Shown piece after piece: positions 26,494 through 34,292 of a DNA stretch of 64,000 bases. The notes under the pieces were generated by a model, which was given only the letters and a program-made list of their open reading frames with translations, searched no databases and was not told the origin of the DNA. Position numbers and translations under genes: made by a program. This DNA comes from an uncultured Desulfomonile sp. (GTDB lineage Bacteria > Desulfobacterota > Desulfomonilia > Desulfomonilales > Desulfomonilaceae), in NCBI GenBank assembly GCA_903952205.1, contig CAJBEZ010000037.1, positions 1-64,000 on the forward strand, read 5' to 3'. The first letter of the stretch is position 1; each line of letters begins with the position of its first letter.

Positions 26494-27921
26494 TCACAAA
26501 ACATCACGGAGGGCCCGTTTGGCTGCAAGATGTCCGCACATCCCGTGTACTCCCGCCCCAGGGGGCATTGAAGATGAACAAATGTATATGCCTTTTACTG
26601 GGGTGGAATAAGGTTGCCACCGACCCAGCGGTCGTATGAAAATTTGTTCAAAACTTTGAGATCCGCCGGCAATATCTCCCCCGACATAATTTGGGTTGTA
26701 TGACTCCATGTCCTTAGTTGACATCGAATGTCTGGAGAGAATTGAATCCCGGAATCCTGGGGCAAATCGTTCGATCTGATCTTCAATTGCATTGCTCATG
26801 TCCAGGGGACATCCATTGGGAACATGGCAGTACGCCCAGGCCGTTTGCATTCCTTCTGGGGCACGGGATGGATCAAAAAGACTCGGTTGTGATAATAACA
26901 CGAACGGTTTTTCCGGAATTATTCCTTTCCCCACGTCACCCTCCGCTCTTGCTATTTCCTCCAAACTACCCCCGATGTGAAGAGTTCCAGCGAGATAACA
27001 GGCTGGGTCTTTCCAGGGTATAGGACCAGCCAAAGCCCAATCCATCTTGAAGACTCCCGGACCGTGAATGTGCGAAATAAGTCGCTTTTGATAAGAGCTT
27101 GGCAATTTTGACCCGGCAATCCTGGCCAACTGTCTTGGTGTTACGTCGAACAAAATGGCGCGCGCATCAGGAAGATCATTCAACGATGAAACTGTTTTCC
27201 CAAGATTCATTTCACACCCAAGACTCTCTAAAAGATTCGCCATGGAATCAGCGATAGCCTGAGACCCACCTCTTGCCATCGGCCATCCAACGGCATGTCC
27301 TAGAGTAGGTAGCAGCAAGCCAAACGCTGCGCTTGACCAATGTTCCAGTGGGAGTATCGAATGAGCGGCGTTACCCGCAAACAGAGCCTGCGCTCTCCTG
27401 GTTTTAAATTTTCCCAGAGCCAAATGTTTAGCGGACTGTATCGCCTTTGGCCCAAATCTCATGAGGGCAAGAGGGTGTTTGGGAACCCCAAGAGGTTTTA
27501 GGAGGTCGTCGACCAGTTTGCGCCAGTCTTTCAACAGAGAAGAATAGAGTTTATGGTATCGTCTGGAGTCAGTGCCTAGTCCTTCCGCTGTAGCGTTAAT
27601 GGATCTGTCAAGCAGCACAGCGCCTTCGTTGTCGAGTGGGTGAGCCAGTGGAACAGGCGAATGAATCCATTCGAGGCCTCGATCTGAAAGATCAACTGAT
27701 CTGAAAAAAGGCGAGGCAAGCGCCAGTGGATGTATTGCGGAACAAACGTCATGTCTAAATCCAGGGAGGGTTAGTTCCTGAGTGCGTGTGCCTCCGCCCA
27801 AAGTCGCTTTTTCTTCGAGGACGAGAACCGAACGTTTCTTTTGCGCTATAGTTAATGCGGCTGCCAGCCCATTAGGACCTGATCCTACGATGACTGCGTC
27901 ATATTTTGTTCTAATCGCCAT
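26494..27921 (-). CDS. phytoene-dehydrogenase-like FAD oxidoreductase
   Basis: A 475-residue flavoprotein of the COG1233/PYROXD2-like group. It opens with the dinucleotide fold AVIVGSGPNGLAAALTIAQK and the LGGGTRT motif; the C-terminal FAD-binding signature is PVKGIYICSSSMPPGAGVHG. Relatives are carotenoid desaturases and isomerases, but substrates vary widely and the real one is unknown. I chose the start MAIRTKYD at 27921, which overlaps the end of the upstream gene by 11 bases; an in-frame ATG at 27978 would overlap by 68. It is the last gene of a four-gene minus-strand cluster. Confidence 0.85.
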   Translation of the reverse strand: MAIRTKYDAVIVGSGPNGLAAALTIAQKKRSVLVLEEKATLGGGTRTQELTLPGFRHDVCSAIHPLALASPFFRSVDLSDRGLEWIHSPVPLAHPLDNEGAVLLDRSINATAEGLGTDSRRYHKLYSSLLKDWRKLVDDLLKPLGVPKHPLALMRFGPKAIQSAKHLALGKFKTRRAQALFAGNAAHSILPLEHWSSAAFGLLLPTLGHAVGWPMARGGSQAIADSMANLLESLGCEMNLGKTVSSLNDLPDARAILFDVTPRQLARIAGSKLPSSYQKRLISHIHGPGVFKMDWALAGPIPWKDPACYLAGTLHIGGSLEEIARAEGDVGKGIIPEKPFVLLSQPSLFDPSRAPEGMQTAWAYCHVPNGCPLDMSNAIEDQIERFAPGFRDSILSRHSMSTKDMESYNPNYVGGDIAGGSQSFEQIFIRPLGRWQPYSTPVKGIYICSSSMPPGAGVHGMCGHLAAKRALRDVL

Positions 27922-30583
27922 TGGCGCTTTTCTGACCAAATCTCTTCCGGGCTCTCCCATACAACCACCTGGGTTCATTGATTAATGTTCGTATTTGGGA
28001 ATTGAGCCAGATGTTACTTATAAACGACCATTGCATATTATTGTCGACACAGTTTGAGTTGACAGCTATCTCTGATGGTACACCCAGATCAGCGGCCAAT
28101 GATTTCAGAACGTGCGTCCATATCCCTATCTGTATCCTGGAACCTACAAGGTGGAATGCAAGCTCAAAAACCGGATCGTTTGATCTGGTGAGCCCATAAA
28201 TTTGTACAACTGTTCTGTCTTCCTCCCTGTATGAGCTGAAAGTTACCCAACCAGCTTCGGGGTGTCCTTGTGGGGTAGCGAAAGTGAATGACAGTTCATC
28301 GGCGTACATTATCATGACACCGGTAGATACCGGTCCACCTGGAGTTATAGAATCAATTAGGACTATTTCTCCAGGTTTGATGCCCGCAGAAGACGGGAAA
28401 AAATGATTGAACGACGGCTGGAAATCAGTGAATTTAGCTTTAAGCGTGGAGACCAAATCTTCCGGACTGTAGCTCGAATCCTTTATAAACAACCTGTAAG
28501 TTTTCTCCCACATTTGACCGAAACCACTTACAGGGCTACCTGTTTTCAACCCGTCAACGTTAAGATTGCGAGCGCCCTCAGGATGAAAAGCCACAGTCAG
28601 GTAAGGCTTCAGATTGGCCCAGTTGGATGAGTCAACTTCTGCAGGTTCCGACTCACCCTCATTAATAGACCCTGCAGGCTGTTCAGCTGATTGAGCTGCG
28701 GCAAGAGCCTCTTTCCGGGTCGCAAACAATTGTACTACCCGATCAAGTTCAGTCAATTTCATGACATCATGGAAGCCTGGGGCTAATCCATAACCGAGAA
28801 GCGCCTGTCTGTCGCGGGCTGCAATGGCGCTCACTTTGGCGAGCATCGAAACGCCCAGTCCATTCATCATCCGGACTTGTGAGAAATTTAATATGTAGCT
28901 CCGTAAATCCACCTTTCCCTTTTGTCCGCAAACCCATAGAAACGGTCTCTCATCGAAATCCGTAAGTTCCCCCGGTAAATCTACAACACATACGGTAGAG
29001 CTCAAGAATGAGGCTTTGGCATGGATACTCCCACAACCTGGCGGTTGAGGTTCAACGACCACATCAAGTGTGGCCTTTTTGACAGAAGACAATTCATGTT
29101 CCGTTTCAGCAAGCCTATCGCGGGCAAGATTAAGGCGATTGGAAAATCCGGGTAATAGCGCCAGTCCTAATTTCACAAAAATAGATTCCCTCATTTTGTC
29201 AAGGAAGACCAACTGGGAAACCCGTCCTACAAGGGCTTGGGCATACGTCGGGTAAGCGTGGGTAACAGAATGAAATCGGCTCAAGGGTTTGTTGAGGGCT
29301 TTTAGAACTTGAACTTCATGAATGACTTCAGCCGCGGCTTCCCCGAGAATGTGGGCGCCAACAATCCGGCCCCGTCGATCACACAGGAATTTGGCCATCC
29401 CTGTAGTGTGTCCGTCTATCATTGCTCTGCGCATATTTGAGTAACTGAACCTATAGGTTCTCAGACTATGGCCGTACTTCTTCAACGCGCTTCCCTCTGT
29501 CAATCCAATGAAGGCCAGAGTTGGTTCTGTAAATATAACGTACACATTGTTACTGTAATTCACCTTTTGCTTGAACGGAGAAAAGGCGTTGGAGGCAGCG
29601 ATGATTCCTTGATACTCAGCCATTGACGCCAGTTGATAAGGCCCGATTATATCTCCACATGCGTATATGTTCGGAGCGGAAGTTTGCAGCTTACTATTTG
29701 CTAAAACCCCCCGCGCGTTAAAATCGACACCAGCTTTTTCCAGGGCAAGATCCTCAAGATCGGGTTTTCTGCCGATAGCCACCAGAACCTTGTCTGCCTG
29801 GATCTTTCCTACATGCTTGTCTGTCGTCCGTTCATATTCTAAAATTACCTTGCTATTTTGGTGGGTCAGTCCGATTGCTTTTGTTCCTGTAAGAATCTGA
29901 ATACCATCCGCTTCCAGCGTCGCTACCAGGAGACTTGTGAGTTCAGGGTCAGTCATAGGCAGCAGCCTTGAGCCCATTTCCACTATGGTGGTTTCAACCC
30001 CCAGCCTGCCAAAAGCCGAAGCGTATTCCAAGCCGTCTACCCCTCCACCCAGGATGATGATGGATTTGGGCAGTTCCCCTAGTTCGTAGAGATTTTCATT
30101 GGTCAGGTAATCAATGTCGCTAAGTCCTTTGATTGGAGGAACCAAAGGACTGGTACCCGTAGCTATAACAATTTTTTCGGCTGAAATTACTCTGCCGCCC
30201 ACTTCTATCCTGTGGCGGTCAACAAAAGAAGCAATTCCTGACAATACATTTATTCCAATTCGTTCGAATGTTTCAGGTAGATCTTTTTCATAGGCTTTTT
30301 GGACGATGGACCGGATGTGAGGCATTACCATTTTGCCGTCGATTTCGGGAGCGGGACCTGAGAAAATACCCATACGGTGAAAATGCGCTATATCTTTACT
30401 CACATGGGCGAGTCGAATCAGGGACTTGCTTGGTACACATGTGAAATTTGTACAGTTGCCACCAACTTTCTTCTTCTCAATCACGGCTACTTTTTTACCA
30501 ATGCCGTTAGCTGTCACGGCGGCGACAAAACCGGCGATCCCCGCTCCTATAACCATCAGATCATAGTCATGAGATTTTGACAT
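27911..30583 (-). CDS. disulfide oxidoreductase fused to STAS and DUF1990-like domains
   Basis: An 890-residue protein in three parts. Residues 1-470 are a class I pyridine nucleotide-disulfide oxidoreductase (mercuric reductase / dihydrolipoamide dehydrogenase type): FAD motif GAGIAG, redox pair C44/C49 in GGNCTNFTC, NAD motif GGGVDGLEYA and the C-terminal HAYPTYAQ, where the family has HPT-SE. Residues about 520-632 resemble a STAS domain (MNGLGVSMLAKVSAIAARDR, then VMKLTELDRVVQLFATRKEA), known for anti-sigma antagonists and protein binding. Residues about 680-830 resemble DUF1990 (FTFATPQGHPEAGWVTF, then ELAFHLVGSRIQIG). I know no characterised protein with this order. It starts 26 bases after the radical SAM gene. 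Confidence 0.85.
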   Translation of the reverse strand: MSKSHDYDLMVIGAGIAGFVAAVTANGIGKKVAVIEKKKVGGNCTNFTCVPSKSLIRLAHVSKDIAHFHRMGIFSGPAPEIDGKMVMPHIRSIVQKAYEKDLPETFERIGINVLSGIASFVDRHRIEVGGRVISAEKIVIATGTSPLVPPIKGLSDIDYLTNENLYELGELPKSIIILGGGVDGLEYASAFGRLGVETTIVEMGSRLLPMTDPELTSLLVATLEADGIQILTGTKAIGLTHQNSKVILEYERTTDKHVGKIQADKVLVAIGRKPDLEDLALEKAGVDFNARGVLANSKLQTSAPNIYACGDIIGPYQLASMAEYQGIIAASNAFSPFKQKVNYSNNVYVIFTEPTLAFIGLTEGSALKKYGHSLRTYRFSYSNMRRAMIDGHTTGMAKFLCDRRGRIVGAHILGEAAAEVIHEVQVLKALNKPLSRFHSVTHAYPTYAQALVGRVSQLVFLDKMRESIFVKLGLALLPGFSNRLNLARDRLAETEHELSSVKKATLDVVVEPQPPGCGSIHAKASFLSSTVCVVDLPGELTDFDERPFLWVCGQKGKVDLRSYILNFSQVRMMNGLGVSMLAKVSAIAARDRQALLGYGLAPGFHDVMKLTELDRVVQLFATRKEALAAAQSAEQPAGSINEGESEPAEVDSSNWANLKPYLTVAFHPEGARNLNVDGLKTGSPVSGFGQMWEKTYRLFIKDSSYSPEDLVSTLKAKFTDFQPSFNHFFPSSAGIKPGEIVLIDSITPGGPVSTGVMIMYADELSFTFATPQGHPEAGWVTFSSYREEDRTVVQIYGLTRSNDPVFELAFHLVGSRIQIGIWTHVLKSLAADLGVPSEIAVNSNCVDNNMQWSFISNIWLNSQIRTLINEPRWLYGRARKRFGQKSANGD

Positions 30584-30609: not shown

Positions 30610-32049
30610 TTAAAGATTGAAACGAGCGGCAAGCCGTCTGGCTTTCTTGTTTATCTTCCTTCCAATCATCTTCGTCAGGACGAATGGCACACTTGTCAAA
30701 AGCGCAGGAACATTTTTCGAAGTAAACAATTTTATTGTAAATAATTTTCTCATGATAGCGATCAATTGCTTTGGCGTGTAAAAATTACGTGTTATTTTGT
30801 GACTTATCCGTTTTAGTCCTGGACGACCAACGCCTTCCCTGTATACTATTCTGTCGTCTCCTACATAATACCCTGGGGTAGATTCCACCAATTCCCTTAA
30901 AGGCGAATATCTGTCGACTCGTAATTTCTGATAAGTTATCGAGTCGAGACCCAATTCTCTTGCAAATACGGGAATATTCATCATCTCTTCATCCGTCTCC
31001 GTCACATTCCCGTAAATGAAATAGCCGTGGTAATAAAATGGGTGTTTTCTGAACTCCTCAAACGCTTTTCTCAACCTGCACGTGTCAAAGCCCTTGTTTA
31101 ATTGTTCAAGTATTCTGTCAGTAGGTGACTCAATCCCCAGGAGAAATATTTTTATTCCTGCCTTGGCGGCGGCGTCCAGTACATCAGGCCGTTCAAAAAT
31201 TTCAATACGGGCCTGAACCAGAAATCTTTTTTTGCTGCCTTTCGCTATCAACCTCTCACAAATTTCTTTTGCCCTGTTTGGATTCACAAAAAAGTTTTCA
31301 TCGGCTATCAGGACTATTCCGGCCTCAATTTGGTCAAACTCCTTCATGACTTCGTCAACAGATCGGACTGAATAACGACGTTTGTGCGTCCAGGGATTCA
31401 GACTAAAAGTGCAAAATTTACAATTATAAGGACAGCCTCTCGACGTTAGAATCATGTCAAAAGATTCGACTGGGAGGGCATATCCAGCCACGTTCATATT
31501 ATAATCCTGATGCCTGAGCTTTCTGTCGGGGGGGGCGTAATGATCTATGTCGCCTAGAACCCTGTTGGTGTTGTGAATGACCTGGATTCCCTGCCTGAAA
31601 GATATGCCAGAAATATCTTTCAGTGGAACGCCTTGCGCTATTTCGGCAATAGCGTCTTCTCCTTCTCCTCTAACAAGAATATCAACTCCCGGGCAGAGCT
31701 CGAAAATTTCCTCAACACTGTCAGTTGCCTGTTGCCCTCCGACCACTGTTGTAATGTGTTGTGGCAAACTGTTTACAAGTTCACAAACTTCTTTGAAATG
31801 ATATTCCCAGTTTATGCTTATGCACAACAGGTCTACTTTCTCATTTGTAAAATCAACAAGTTTCTTGATGTCTCTGAAAGGACCTGGAAGACGTAGATCC
31901 AAAAAAGTGATCTCTTGGACATGGGGTTTTAAAGCCGCCACAATGTACTCTAAGCCGATAGGAGGGAAAATTGCCAATCCTAAAGATCCGGCATGGCTGT
32001 CACTCATATAAGGGTGGATACACATCGCATGTTTAAAAATTGTATTCAA
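30610..32049 (-). CDS. B12-binding-domain radical SAM protein
   Basis: A 479-residue enzyme with an N-terminal cobalamin-binding-like domain (about 25-140; VVGGQQATDSVEEI, VDILVRGEGEDAI) and a radical SAM domain with the cluster motif CPYNCKFC (C206, C210, C213). Members of this class methylate unactivated carbons or build lipids, hopanoids, tetrapyrroles and natural products; the sequence does not show which. The C-terminal 100 residues are basic and amphipathic, which could favour membrane contact. It lies 53 bases after the bi-domain oxidoreductase and just before the three-domain flavoprotein. Confidence 0.87.
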   Translation of the reverse strand: MNTIFKHAMCIHPYMSDSHAGSLGLAIFPPIGLEYIVAALKPHVQEITFLDLRLPGPFRDIKKLVDFTNEKVDLLCISINWEYHFKEVCELVNSLPQHITTVVGGQQATDSVEEIFELCPGVDILVRGEGEDAIAEIAQGVPLKDISGISFRQGIQVIHNTNRVLGDIDHYAPPDRKLRHQDYNMNVAGYALPVESFDMILTSRGCPYNCKFCTFSLNPWTHKRRYSVRSVDEVMKEFDQIEAGIVLIADENFFVNPNRAKEICERLIAKGSKKRFLVQARIEIFERPDVLDAAAKAGIKIFLLGIESPTDRILEQLNKGFDTCRLRKAFEEFRKHPFYYHGYFIYGNVTETDEEMMNIPVFARELGLDSITYQKLRVDRYSPLRELVESTPGYYVGDDRIVYREGVGRPGLKRISHKITRNFYTPKQLIAIMRKLFTIKLFTSKNVPALLTSVPFVLTKMIGRKINKKARRLAARFNL

Positions 32050-32102
32050 TATCTTGTTACCTTTGTATTAACTGAAACAGTGTTTTCTCCAAACCTGATA
32101 AT

Positions 32103-34292
32103 TCATTGTTTGATCGTAACGTCTGAAGCATGTTTTACTATGTCGAATGTCACCTTTGTGATTTCAAGAATTTCTTCGAAAGGAATTGGTGGTTTTTCCC
32201 GGTTTTGAACCGCTTCCAAAAATCTTCTTATGGATTCCTTGTGACCTTTATCCTGCCTCCAAAGATTCATCTTTTTGAATCCGGGCCAATCATATCCCTT
32301 AAGGTTTTGAAAATTGTCCAACTGAAGAATACGACTTTCACAAAAGATCTCGATTCTCTCCTTTGGAAAAGATTTGGACCCGTTGGCAAGGTAGTGAACA
32401 GTTCCAACAGATCCATTCTCAAATGTAATTGTGAAACTCATCTTGTCATCTGTGACGAAGACTCCCGGGGCCTCTCCAATTTTGGCTGCGCAAAAGGAGA
32501 CCGGCCTTGATCCTGTGAGGAAGAACAGTAGATCTACAAAATGGCATCCTTCACCAATAATCCTGCCTCCTCCTACGTACGGGTCTTGTGTCCAGTCATT
32601 GGGGGGGACCTCTCCAGCATTAACAGTTATGATTATGGACAATGGCTGTTTGATCAGACGCAAAAGCTGACTGATTTTTTGCATCTGGGGGGCGAAACGT
32701 CTATTAAAACCTATCATTAAAATGGGAGGGACATCAAAATGTCTTGATGACGAATAAGCCTGCCGAATTAGTTCAAGTTGTTCGGGAAAAATTGCCAATG
32801 GTTTTTCCACGTAGACATTCTGTCCATTTTCCAATGCCTTGCAAACCATGTCCGAGTGCGTGTTATGCCTCGTCAATACAAACACCGTGTTAATTTCCGG
32901 ATCGCTAAAAATGCCGGCAGTATCGGTCGTCGCAAAGCTAAAACCGAATTTTTTCCCCGCATACGCCCCACTTACACCGGTAGAAGTTGATATGGTCTTG
33001 AGTCTTGCGCCAGTAGCCTTCAAAGCTGGGAGAAATGTTCTCAGACCATAATTCCCGGCCCCTATGACCCCTATTACAGGAACTACTTTAGCTCCCGCAT
33101 GGGTATTGGTTGCAATTGAATTTGAACCCGATTTTCCAATTATTTCTACAGTTTGTTTTGTAAGTTTTTCCTCAGAAGAATCTTCAAAATCATATTCAAG
33201 CATGATGCCTAAAGAAGGCTCTTTAGTTGCCAACAGATCGTAGGCCGACGCCACCTTATCAAATTTGAATCGGTGAGATATCAGAGGACCTACAAGCAGC
33301 TTTCCTCCAGCCAAAAGCTCTAGGGCCGCTTCGAAATTGCGTTGTTCCGTCCACCTGACAAACCCGAAAGGATAGTCATGGCCTCGTTCCTCATATTGCG
33401 GGTCGTATCGTCCAGGGCCATAGGAACATGAGACCTGAAAAGTCAATTCTTTCTCATAAAATAAAGATCTGTCGAGATTAAGTCCAGTTACCCCTACTAG
33501 AATGATTCGACCGCGTTTACGGCATATTTTAGCCGCCTGACGCATTGGTTCATCACTTTCGGTCGCTGCGGCAATAATGACTCCGTCTACACCTAGATCA
33601 TCGGAAAATACGGAGGCGCATCTTAACAAATCTTGGCCTAAACCTGGGTTGATTGTTTGAATACCCAGTCTGTCGGCCATAGCAATTTTCCCGGGATCCA
33701 GATCAATCCCCATAACGCTGCATCCATTCGCTTTAAGCGTCTGTGCGGCAATCAAGCCGATGAGGCCCAGCCCAATGACCACGAATTTCTCCCCAAGGGT
33801 CGGATTTGCGAGTCTTATCCCCTGAATTGCGATTGCGCTCAGTACCGTGAAAACAGCCTGTTCGTAGGATACCGCATCAGGGATTCTTGCGCAGAGGTTT
33901 TTAGGTACGAGAACAATTTCCGCATGAGGCCCATTGGAGACTACTCGGTCTCCTGGCTTAAACTTTTCAGCGCCTGAGCCAACTTCCAGCACTACACCCA
34001 CGTTGCTGTATCCCATTACAATAGGATGATCCAGTTTGTCCCGCACAGCGTCAATTGTTTGAAACAGGCCCTCATTCCGGACCTTTTCCAGGACCTCAAA
34101 AACTTTCTCCGGTTGCTTGCGAGCCTTTTGCAGCAGGCTGGCCTGTCCCAATTCAACTACGCTGCGCTCGGTGCCAGAAGATACAAGACTCAACACGGTT
34201 TTGATCAGTAAATGATTTGCCCTAACTTTTGGAGCGGGAACATCAATCAGCTCCGCCCGTCCATTTCCCAAATTCTGTAAAACTTGTTTCAT
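32103..34292 (-). CDS. bi-domain oxidoreductase: MDR dehydrogenase plus Gfo/Idh/MocA
   Basis: A 729-residue protein. The N-terminal part (about 1-365) is a medium-chain dehydrogenase/reductase (VVSNGPHAEIVLVPKNLCAR and the NAD fold FVVIGLGLIGLIAAQTLK); the C-terminal part (about 395-729) is a Gfo/Idh/MocA oxidoreductase (VIGVIGAGNYGLRTFLPALK, then NVYVEKPLAI). Fusions of this kind are known, often in polysaccharide or sugar-modification loci. It is the first gene of the minus-strand cluster 34292-26494 and probably supplies an oxidised or epimerised sugar-like intermediate, but that role is inferred. Confidence 0.88.
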   Translation of the reverse strand: MKQVLQNLGNGRAELIDVPAPKVRANHLLIKTVLSLVSSGTERSVVELGQASLLQKARKQPEKVFEVLEKVRNEGLFQTIDAVRDKLDHPIVMGYSNVGVVLEVGSGAEKFKPGDRVVSNGPHAEIVLVPKNLCARIPDAVSYEQAVFTVLSAIAIQGIRLANPTLGEKFVVIGLGLIGLIAAQTLKANGCSVMGIDLDPGKIAMADRLGIQTINPGLGQDLLRCASVFSDDLGVDGVIIAAATESDEPMRQAAKICRKRGRIILVGVTGLNLDRSLFYEKELTFQVSCSYGPGRYDPQYEERGHDYPFGFVRWTEQRNFEAALELLAGGKLLVGPLISHRFKFDKVASAYDLLATKEPSLGIMLEYDFEDSSEEKLTKQTVEIIGKSGSNSIATNTHAGAKVVPVIGVIGAGNYGLRTFLPALKATGARLKTISTSTGVSGAYAGKKFGFSFATTDTAGIFSDPEINTVFVLTRHNTHSDMVCKALENGQNVYVEKPLAIFPEQLELIRQAYSSSRHFDVPPILMIGFNRRFAPQMQKISQLLRLIKQPLSIIITVNAGEVPPNDWTQDPYVGGGRIIGEGCHFVDLLFFLTGSRPVSFCAAKIGEAPGVFVTDDKMSFTITFENGSVGTVHYLANGSKSFPKERIEIFCESRILQLDNFQNLKGYDWPGFKKMNLWRQDKGHKESIRRFLEAVQNREKPPIPFEEILEITKVTFDIVKHASDVTIKQ

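Follow-up and report, generated by a model that had tools for sequence, protein, structure and literature searches.

What does a flavin disulfide reductase gain from carrying a STAS domain and a DUF1990-like domain on the same polypeptide, and is such a combination a genuine gene? The question was raised by a sequence-only reading of the window, the whole stretch of 64,000 nucleotides from an uncultured Desulfomonile sp. analysed here, which described an 890-residue frame made of these three parts, knew of no described protein with this order and supposed that the STAS part could link the reductase to a protein partner.

A single gene in ten genomes

The gene and its domains are located as follows.

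27911..30583, minus strand: triple-fusion gene, 890 aa, a single open reading frame with the same order in nine other genomes
29228..30583, minus strand: flavin disulfide reductase domain, residues 1-452 (FAD, NAD and dimerisation domains), by Pfam and PDB matches
28688..29050, minus strand: STAS domain, residues about 512-632, by a profile match to TM1442, a Foldseek match to SpoIIAA and other fusions that pass the cut-off
28064..28531, minus strand: DUF1990-family domain, predicted to fold like START/Bet v 1 proteins, about residues 685-840, by hhalign, a structure model and Foldseek

The reading frame runs uninterrupted from an ATG at 30583 to a TAG stop at 27913-27911, as had been read from the sequence, and Pfam, relatives, profile comparison and structure prediction agree on the order of the three parts. 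A survey brought the carriers of the triple fusion to ten genomes, the window's included. The nine others, which hold it in one frame with the same order and belong to three bacterial families, are seven further members of the window's family (two of these fusions end at contig ends inside the DUF1990 part) and two genomes of the phylum that fall in other families (L073 and L074); genomes G003 and G005 hold only pieces of the fusion, at contig ends. The same uninterrupted order in nine other genomes rules out a frameshift error or an assembly join of separate genes, which had been named as a possible refutation. We therefore regard it as confirmed that a complete flavin disulfide reductase, a STAS domain and a DUF1990 START-like domain are joined in one real gene. 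In a tree of 31 STAS-DUF1990 tails, those of the fusions group in a single clade (support 100/99), which suggests one fusion event. Within the limited literature covered, no protein of this description was found, in agreement with the earlier statement.

The reductase domain

Two short motifs characterize this part of the protein.

30437..30454, minus strand: redox-active C44-TNFT-C49 motif, both cysteines invariant in the ten fused proteins
29237..29254, minus strand: Y444...Q449 in place of the catalytic His and Glu of lipoamide and glutathione reductases, by alignments to dihydrolipoyl dehydrogenase (LPD) and mercuric reductase (MerA) chains

Pfam finds Pyr_redox_2 (7.8e-59, residues 7-326) and Pyr_redox_dim (3.2e-22, residues 349-452) in the 890-aa protein, and the nearest PDB chains are mercuric reductase and dihydrolipoyl dehydrogenase (1e-69). 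With FAD, NAD and dimerisation domains and a redox-active CxxxxC, the domain belongs to the class-I flavin disulfide reductases; the C44/C49 pair, correctly given in the sequence-only reading, is kept in all ten fusions together with the FAD motif, the NAD motif and E202. The likeness to MerA/LPD-type reductases thus covers the complete fold, the CxxxxC and both nucleotide motifs, whereas the differences lie in an identity of at most about 39% to the unfused relatives sampled in the phylum (no unfused reductase nearer than this was found in 247 genomes), in Tyr/Gln for His/Glu and in the C-terminal STAS-DUF1990 extension. Tyr occupies the Y444 position in all fused proteins and also in the sampled unfused MerA-like relatives. 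Since Y444 and Q449 stand where the LPD/glutathione reductase subgroup has its His-Glu pair, the domain was not filed as either of these enzymes, and it reaches none of the curated LPD, glutathione reductase and MerA models (for NCBIfam MerA, 351.6 bits against a cut-off of 454.45). In this fold an acidic residue that closes the second strand of the NAD domain, as E202 does, is a cue to nucleotide preference, and here it suggests that NADH is favoured over NADPH.

The STAS and DUF1990 domains

The HMM search proposed by the sequence-only reading found Pyr_redox_2 in the protein itself, but STAS (E 0.03, 14.5 bits, residues 560-626) and DUF1990 (E 0.14, residues 730-811) stay below the Pfam cut-offs there and pass them in relatives. 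For STAS, the cut-off of 22.6 bits is exceeded by two other triple fusions (29.9 and 34.4), and unfused relatives are matched at 1e-12 to 4e-15. Compared with the PDB, the tail profile matches the anti-sigma factor antagonist TM1442 at 5.9e-10 and also SpoIIAA, and the predicted model superimposes on SpoIIAA 1th8_B with a Foldseek TM of 0.83 by target length. STAS identity and a SpoIIAA-like predicted fold are established in this way, through relatives and the model.

The following site bears on how this domain may work.

28859..28864, minus strand: N574-G575, with Gly where STAS domains usually have the phospho-acceptor, from an alignment of about 30 relatives

Gly is found here in each of the ten fused proteins, in place of the phosphorylatable Ser/Thr of partner-switching STAS proteins (SpoIIAA/RsbR type), and because of this a phospho-switch role appears unlikely for the fused form. 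Loss of the phospho-site through the fusion was considered and rejected, as most unfused relatives in the same alignment are also without Ser/Thr there; Ser is kept in L029 and L030. The domain shares the STAS fold with SpoIIAA/MlaB-type proteins and differs from them in the Gly and in its place within a flavoenzyme.

The DUF1990 cut-off is passed by unfused family-f2 relatives in 10 genomes (best 34 bits). A tblastn search with the window's tail reached Deinococcus proteins annotated as DUF1990 (E = 3e-5), and hhalign against such Deinococcus proteins, themselves over the Pfam cut-off, gave 99% with E = 7e-18 across 153 columns, so that homology of the tail domain to DUF1990 (PF09348) is established at the level of sequence profiles. 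The other members of this family (plant Oep23/At2g17695 and the Deinococcus proteins) share the homologous domain, but they are short and have no STAS. Modelled alone from four sequences (pLDDT 79, pTM 0.78), the domain matched START/Bet v 1-like proteins in Foldseek with probability 1.00 and TM about 0.5-0.65, among them M. smegmatis CoxG (8uds), the ARO/CYC StfQ and norcoclaurine synthase. A START/Bet v 1-like pocket fold with helix-grip topology is accordingly what the model predicts, and the proposed structure-prediction check thus returned both a SpoIIAA-like STAS fold and a START-like DUF1990 fold. Residues of the PQGHPE region are strongly conserved.

The neighbouring genes

Two genes flank the fusion in the window.

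26494..27921, minus strand: CrtO/phytoene-desaturase-like FAD oxidoreductase gene, likely ATG at 27921, downstream in 29/29 loci
30610..32049, minus strand: B12-binding radical SAM protein gene (BchE/HpnJ-like), 26 nt upstream of the fusion

The likely start of the CrtO-like gene overlaps the end of the fusion by 11 nt. In every one of the 29 loci with enough DNA, the next gene downstream on that strand is of this kind, mostly at gaps of -23 to +31 nt, sometimes overlapping. In many genomes, and in most carriers, STAS-DUF1990 forms a separate protein of 340-420 aa without the reductase, and in 21 loci this pair of domains stands beside the CrtO-like gene with no fused reductase. A survey of 42 genomes of the class found the tail in 24 and the CrtO-like gene in 22: both in 21, the tail only in three (all cut at contig ends), the CrtO-like gene only in one and neither in 17. 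Across the phylum sample, 18 of 395 genomes have the tail. The partner genes of the fusions also group together in the CrtO tree (SH-aLRT 89). The tail is thus a conserved companion of the CrtO-like FAD gene, and the two make a near-obligate pair; genome G022 (L137) has the CrtO-like gene with no STAS-DUF1990 gene beside it, so the tail was dispensable at least once. The sequence-only reading had overlooked this partner gene, the predicted likeness of the DUF1990 part to START folds, and the fact that most carriers have the tail as a protein of its own.

The likeness of the partner to CrtO/phytoene desaturase is distant. In a curated-model search no carotenoid enzyme model was matched above its own cut-off (118.9 against 1000 bits for the NCBIfam CrtO ketolase), and no PDB chain was matched at E 1e-4.

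Upstream of the fusion, on the same strand, 30610-34292 of the window holds the B12 radical SAM gene and a bi-domain Zn-dehydrogenase/GFO oxidoreductase gene. A conserved wider operon was rejected, as these two genes adjoin the fusion within the genus only.

Several other arrangements were seen. In several f2 genomes a dikinase gene (PPDK_N + PEP-utilizers) adjoins the unfused STAS-DUF1990/CrtO-like pair (L077:4200-6494, with equivalents in L076, L079, L081 and L082, and on the other side in L080); its best PDB matches are 5hv1/5hv2/5fbs, deposited as phosphoenolpyruvate synthase, which we take to be rifampin phosphotransferases. No such dikinase gene was found beside the fused genes in the loci searched. 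In L031 (1633-5037) the two domains of the tail are separate genes: SpoIIE-HATPase, two standalone STAS and lone DUF1990 genes precede the CrtO-like gene, an order that would be compatible with a regulatory origin. A plasmid search with the tail returned Deinococcus DUF1990 proteins only, without a CrtO-like neighbour. In Deinococcus proteolyticus (L141:3968-6962) two adjacent DUF1990 genes adjoin hemG on the opposite strand, the gene of protoporphyrinogen oxidase, another FAD enzyme.

A proposed adaptor for the CrtO-like enzyme

The tail is found with the CrtO-like enzyme whether or not a reductase is fused to it, and its primary function is therefore most likely tied to this enzyme. The START-like fold and the hydrophobic substrates of CrtO-like enzymes both point to a hydrophobic ligand for the tail. 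Precedents exist for both halves of such an adaptor. One is a CoxG-like protein that binds the soluble FAD glycerol-3-phosphate dehydrogenase of its operon and anchors this enzyme to the membrane (PMC11962113); the other is MlaB, a STAS protein that docks on MlaF and stabilises it (PMC7367683). The CoxG-type adaptors (Sulfolobus acidocaldarius Saci_2031; M. smegmatis CoxG) can be likened to the tail by predicted START-like fold and by gene pairing, since a soluble FAD-dependent oxidoreductase is encoded in their operons too, but they have neither a STAS domain nor a fused reductase. From these precedents and the gene pairing we infer docking through the STAS part and contact with a ligand or membrane through the START-like part.

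The explanation that we tentatively put forward, and to which we give somewhat less than an even chance as a whole, is that the tail serves the CrtO-like enzyme and that the reductase was added in one clade. The STAS-START tail would be an adaptor dedicated to the adjoining FAD oxidoreductase. Its START-like pocket would bind a hydrophobic molecule (a quinone, or a substrate of isoprenoid or lipid nature) or fasten the pair to the membrane in the manner of CoxG-type proteins, and its STAS domain would dock it to the partner with no phosphorylation switch, in the way that MlaB attaches to MlaF. The N terminus of the adaptor would, in one clade, have acquired a dithiol flavin reductase that prefers NADH, and NADH-derived electrons or redox control could then reach the FAD enzyme or the ligand on the same scaffold. 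In short, what the fusion probably supplies to the CrtO-like enzyme and its hydrophobic substrate is NADH-linked redox chemistry. The earlier supposition that STAS links the reductase to a partner is strengthened by this candidate partner gene, with the contact itself read from gene order only. Membrane anchoring by the basic C-terminal tail has no clear support: this segment is not clearly amphipathic, with 7 of 29 tails exceeding shuffled sequences at p < 0.05.

A direct route would have the reductase recycle a flavin or thiol of the CrtO-like enzyme, with STAS and START-like parts as mere linkers and no hydrophobic ligand. The gene pair kept with or without the reductase and the redox cysteines invariant in the fusions fit this, yet the 21 loci in which STAS-START stands beside the CrtO-like gene without a fused reductase indicate that the pair has a job of its own, and START-like folds usually have a ligand pocket; we consider direct recycling fairly unlikely. 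The enzymes might instead work on a common small molecule of some biosynthetic pathway, with the DUF1990/START-like domain itself catalytic, as in polyketide aromatase/cyclases and norcoclaurine synthase. Foldseek matches to StfQ and norcoclaurine synthase, the rifampin phosphotransferase-like dikinase gene next to the pair in f2 genomes and the conserved PQGHPE region point that way, but the fold is common to binders and enzymes and the dikinase is missing beside the fused genes searched, which leaves a catalytic role unlikely. A redox sensor of the partner-switching type (RsbR/stressosome-like), in which STAS would read the reductase and regulate an anti-sigma factor or kinase, would suit the anti-sigma factor antagonists among the best STAS matches, the L031 gene order and the Ser of L029 and L030, but it is very unlikely given the acceptor Gly of ten fusions and the mostly non-Ser/Thr residues of unfused relatives, given that no SpoIIE/HATPase gene of the L031 type adjoins the fusion in the window or the other fused loci searched, and given that the constant neighbour is an FAD enzyme.

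Implications

The adaptor explanation can be carried further, to a claim that we hold as possible rather than probable: STAS-START and the CrtO-like protein would form a two-component redox system in which the former hands a hydrophobic substrate or quinone to the enzyme, and in one clade fusion to an NADH-driven disulfide reductase would have turned the adaptor into a single-polypeptide subunit for electron input and substrate delivery. If true, this system would be previously undescribed. For the little-studied DUF1990 family the analysis offers a predicted START-like fold, a conserved enzyme partner and a role that can be tested. The plant DUF1990 protein Oep23, for which a channel function in the chloroplast outer envelope has been reported (PMC4331141), might merit a fresh examination as a possible ligand binder, and the STAS domain is met here within a redox enzyme, outside transporters and phospho-switches.
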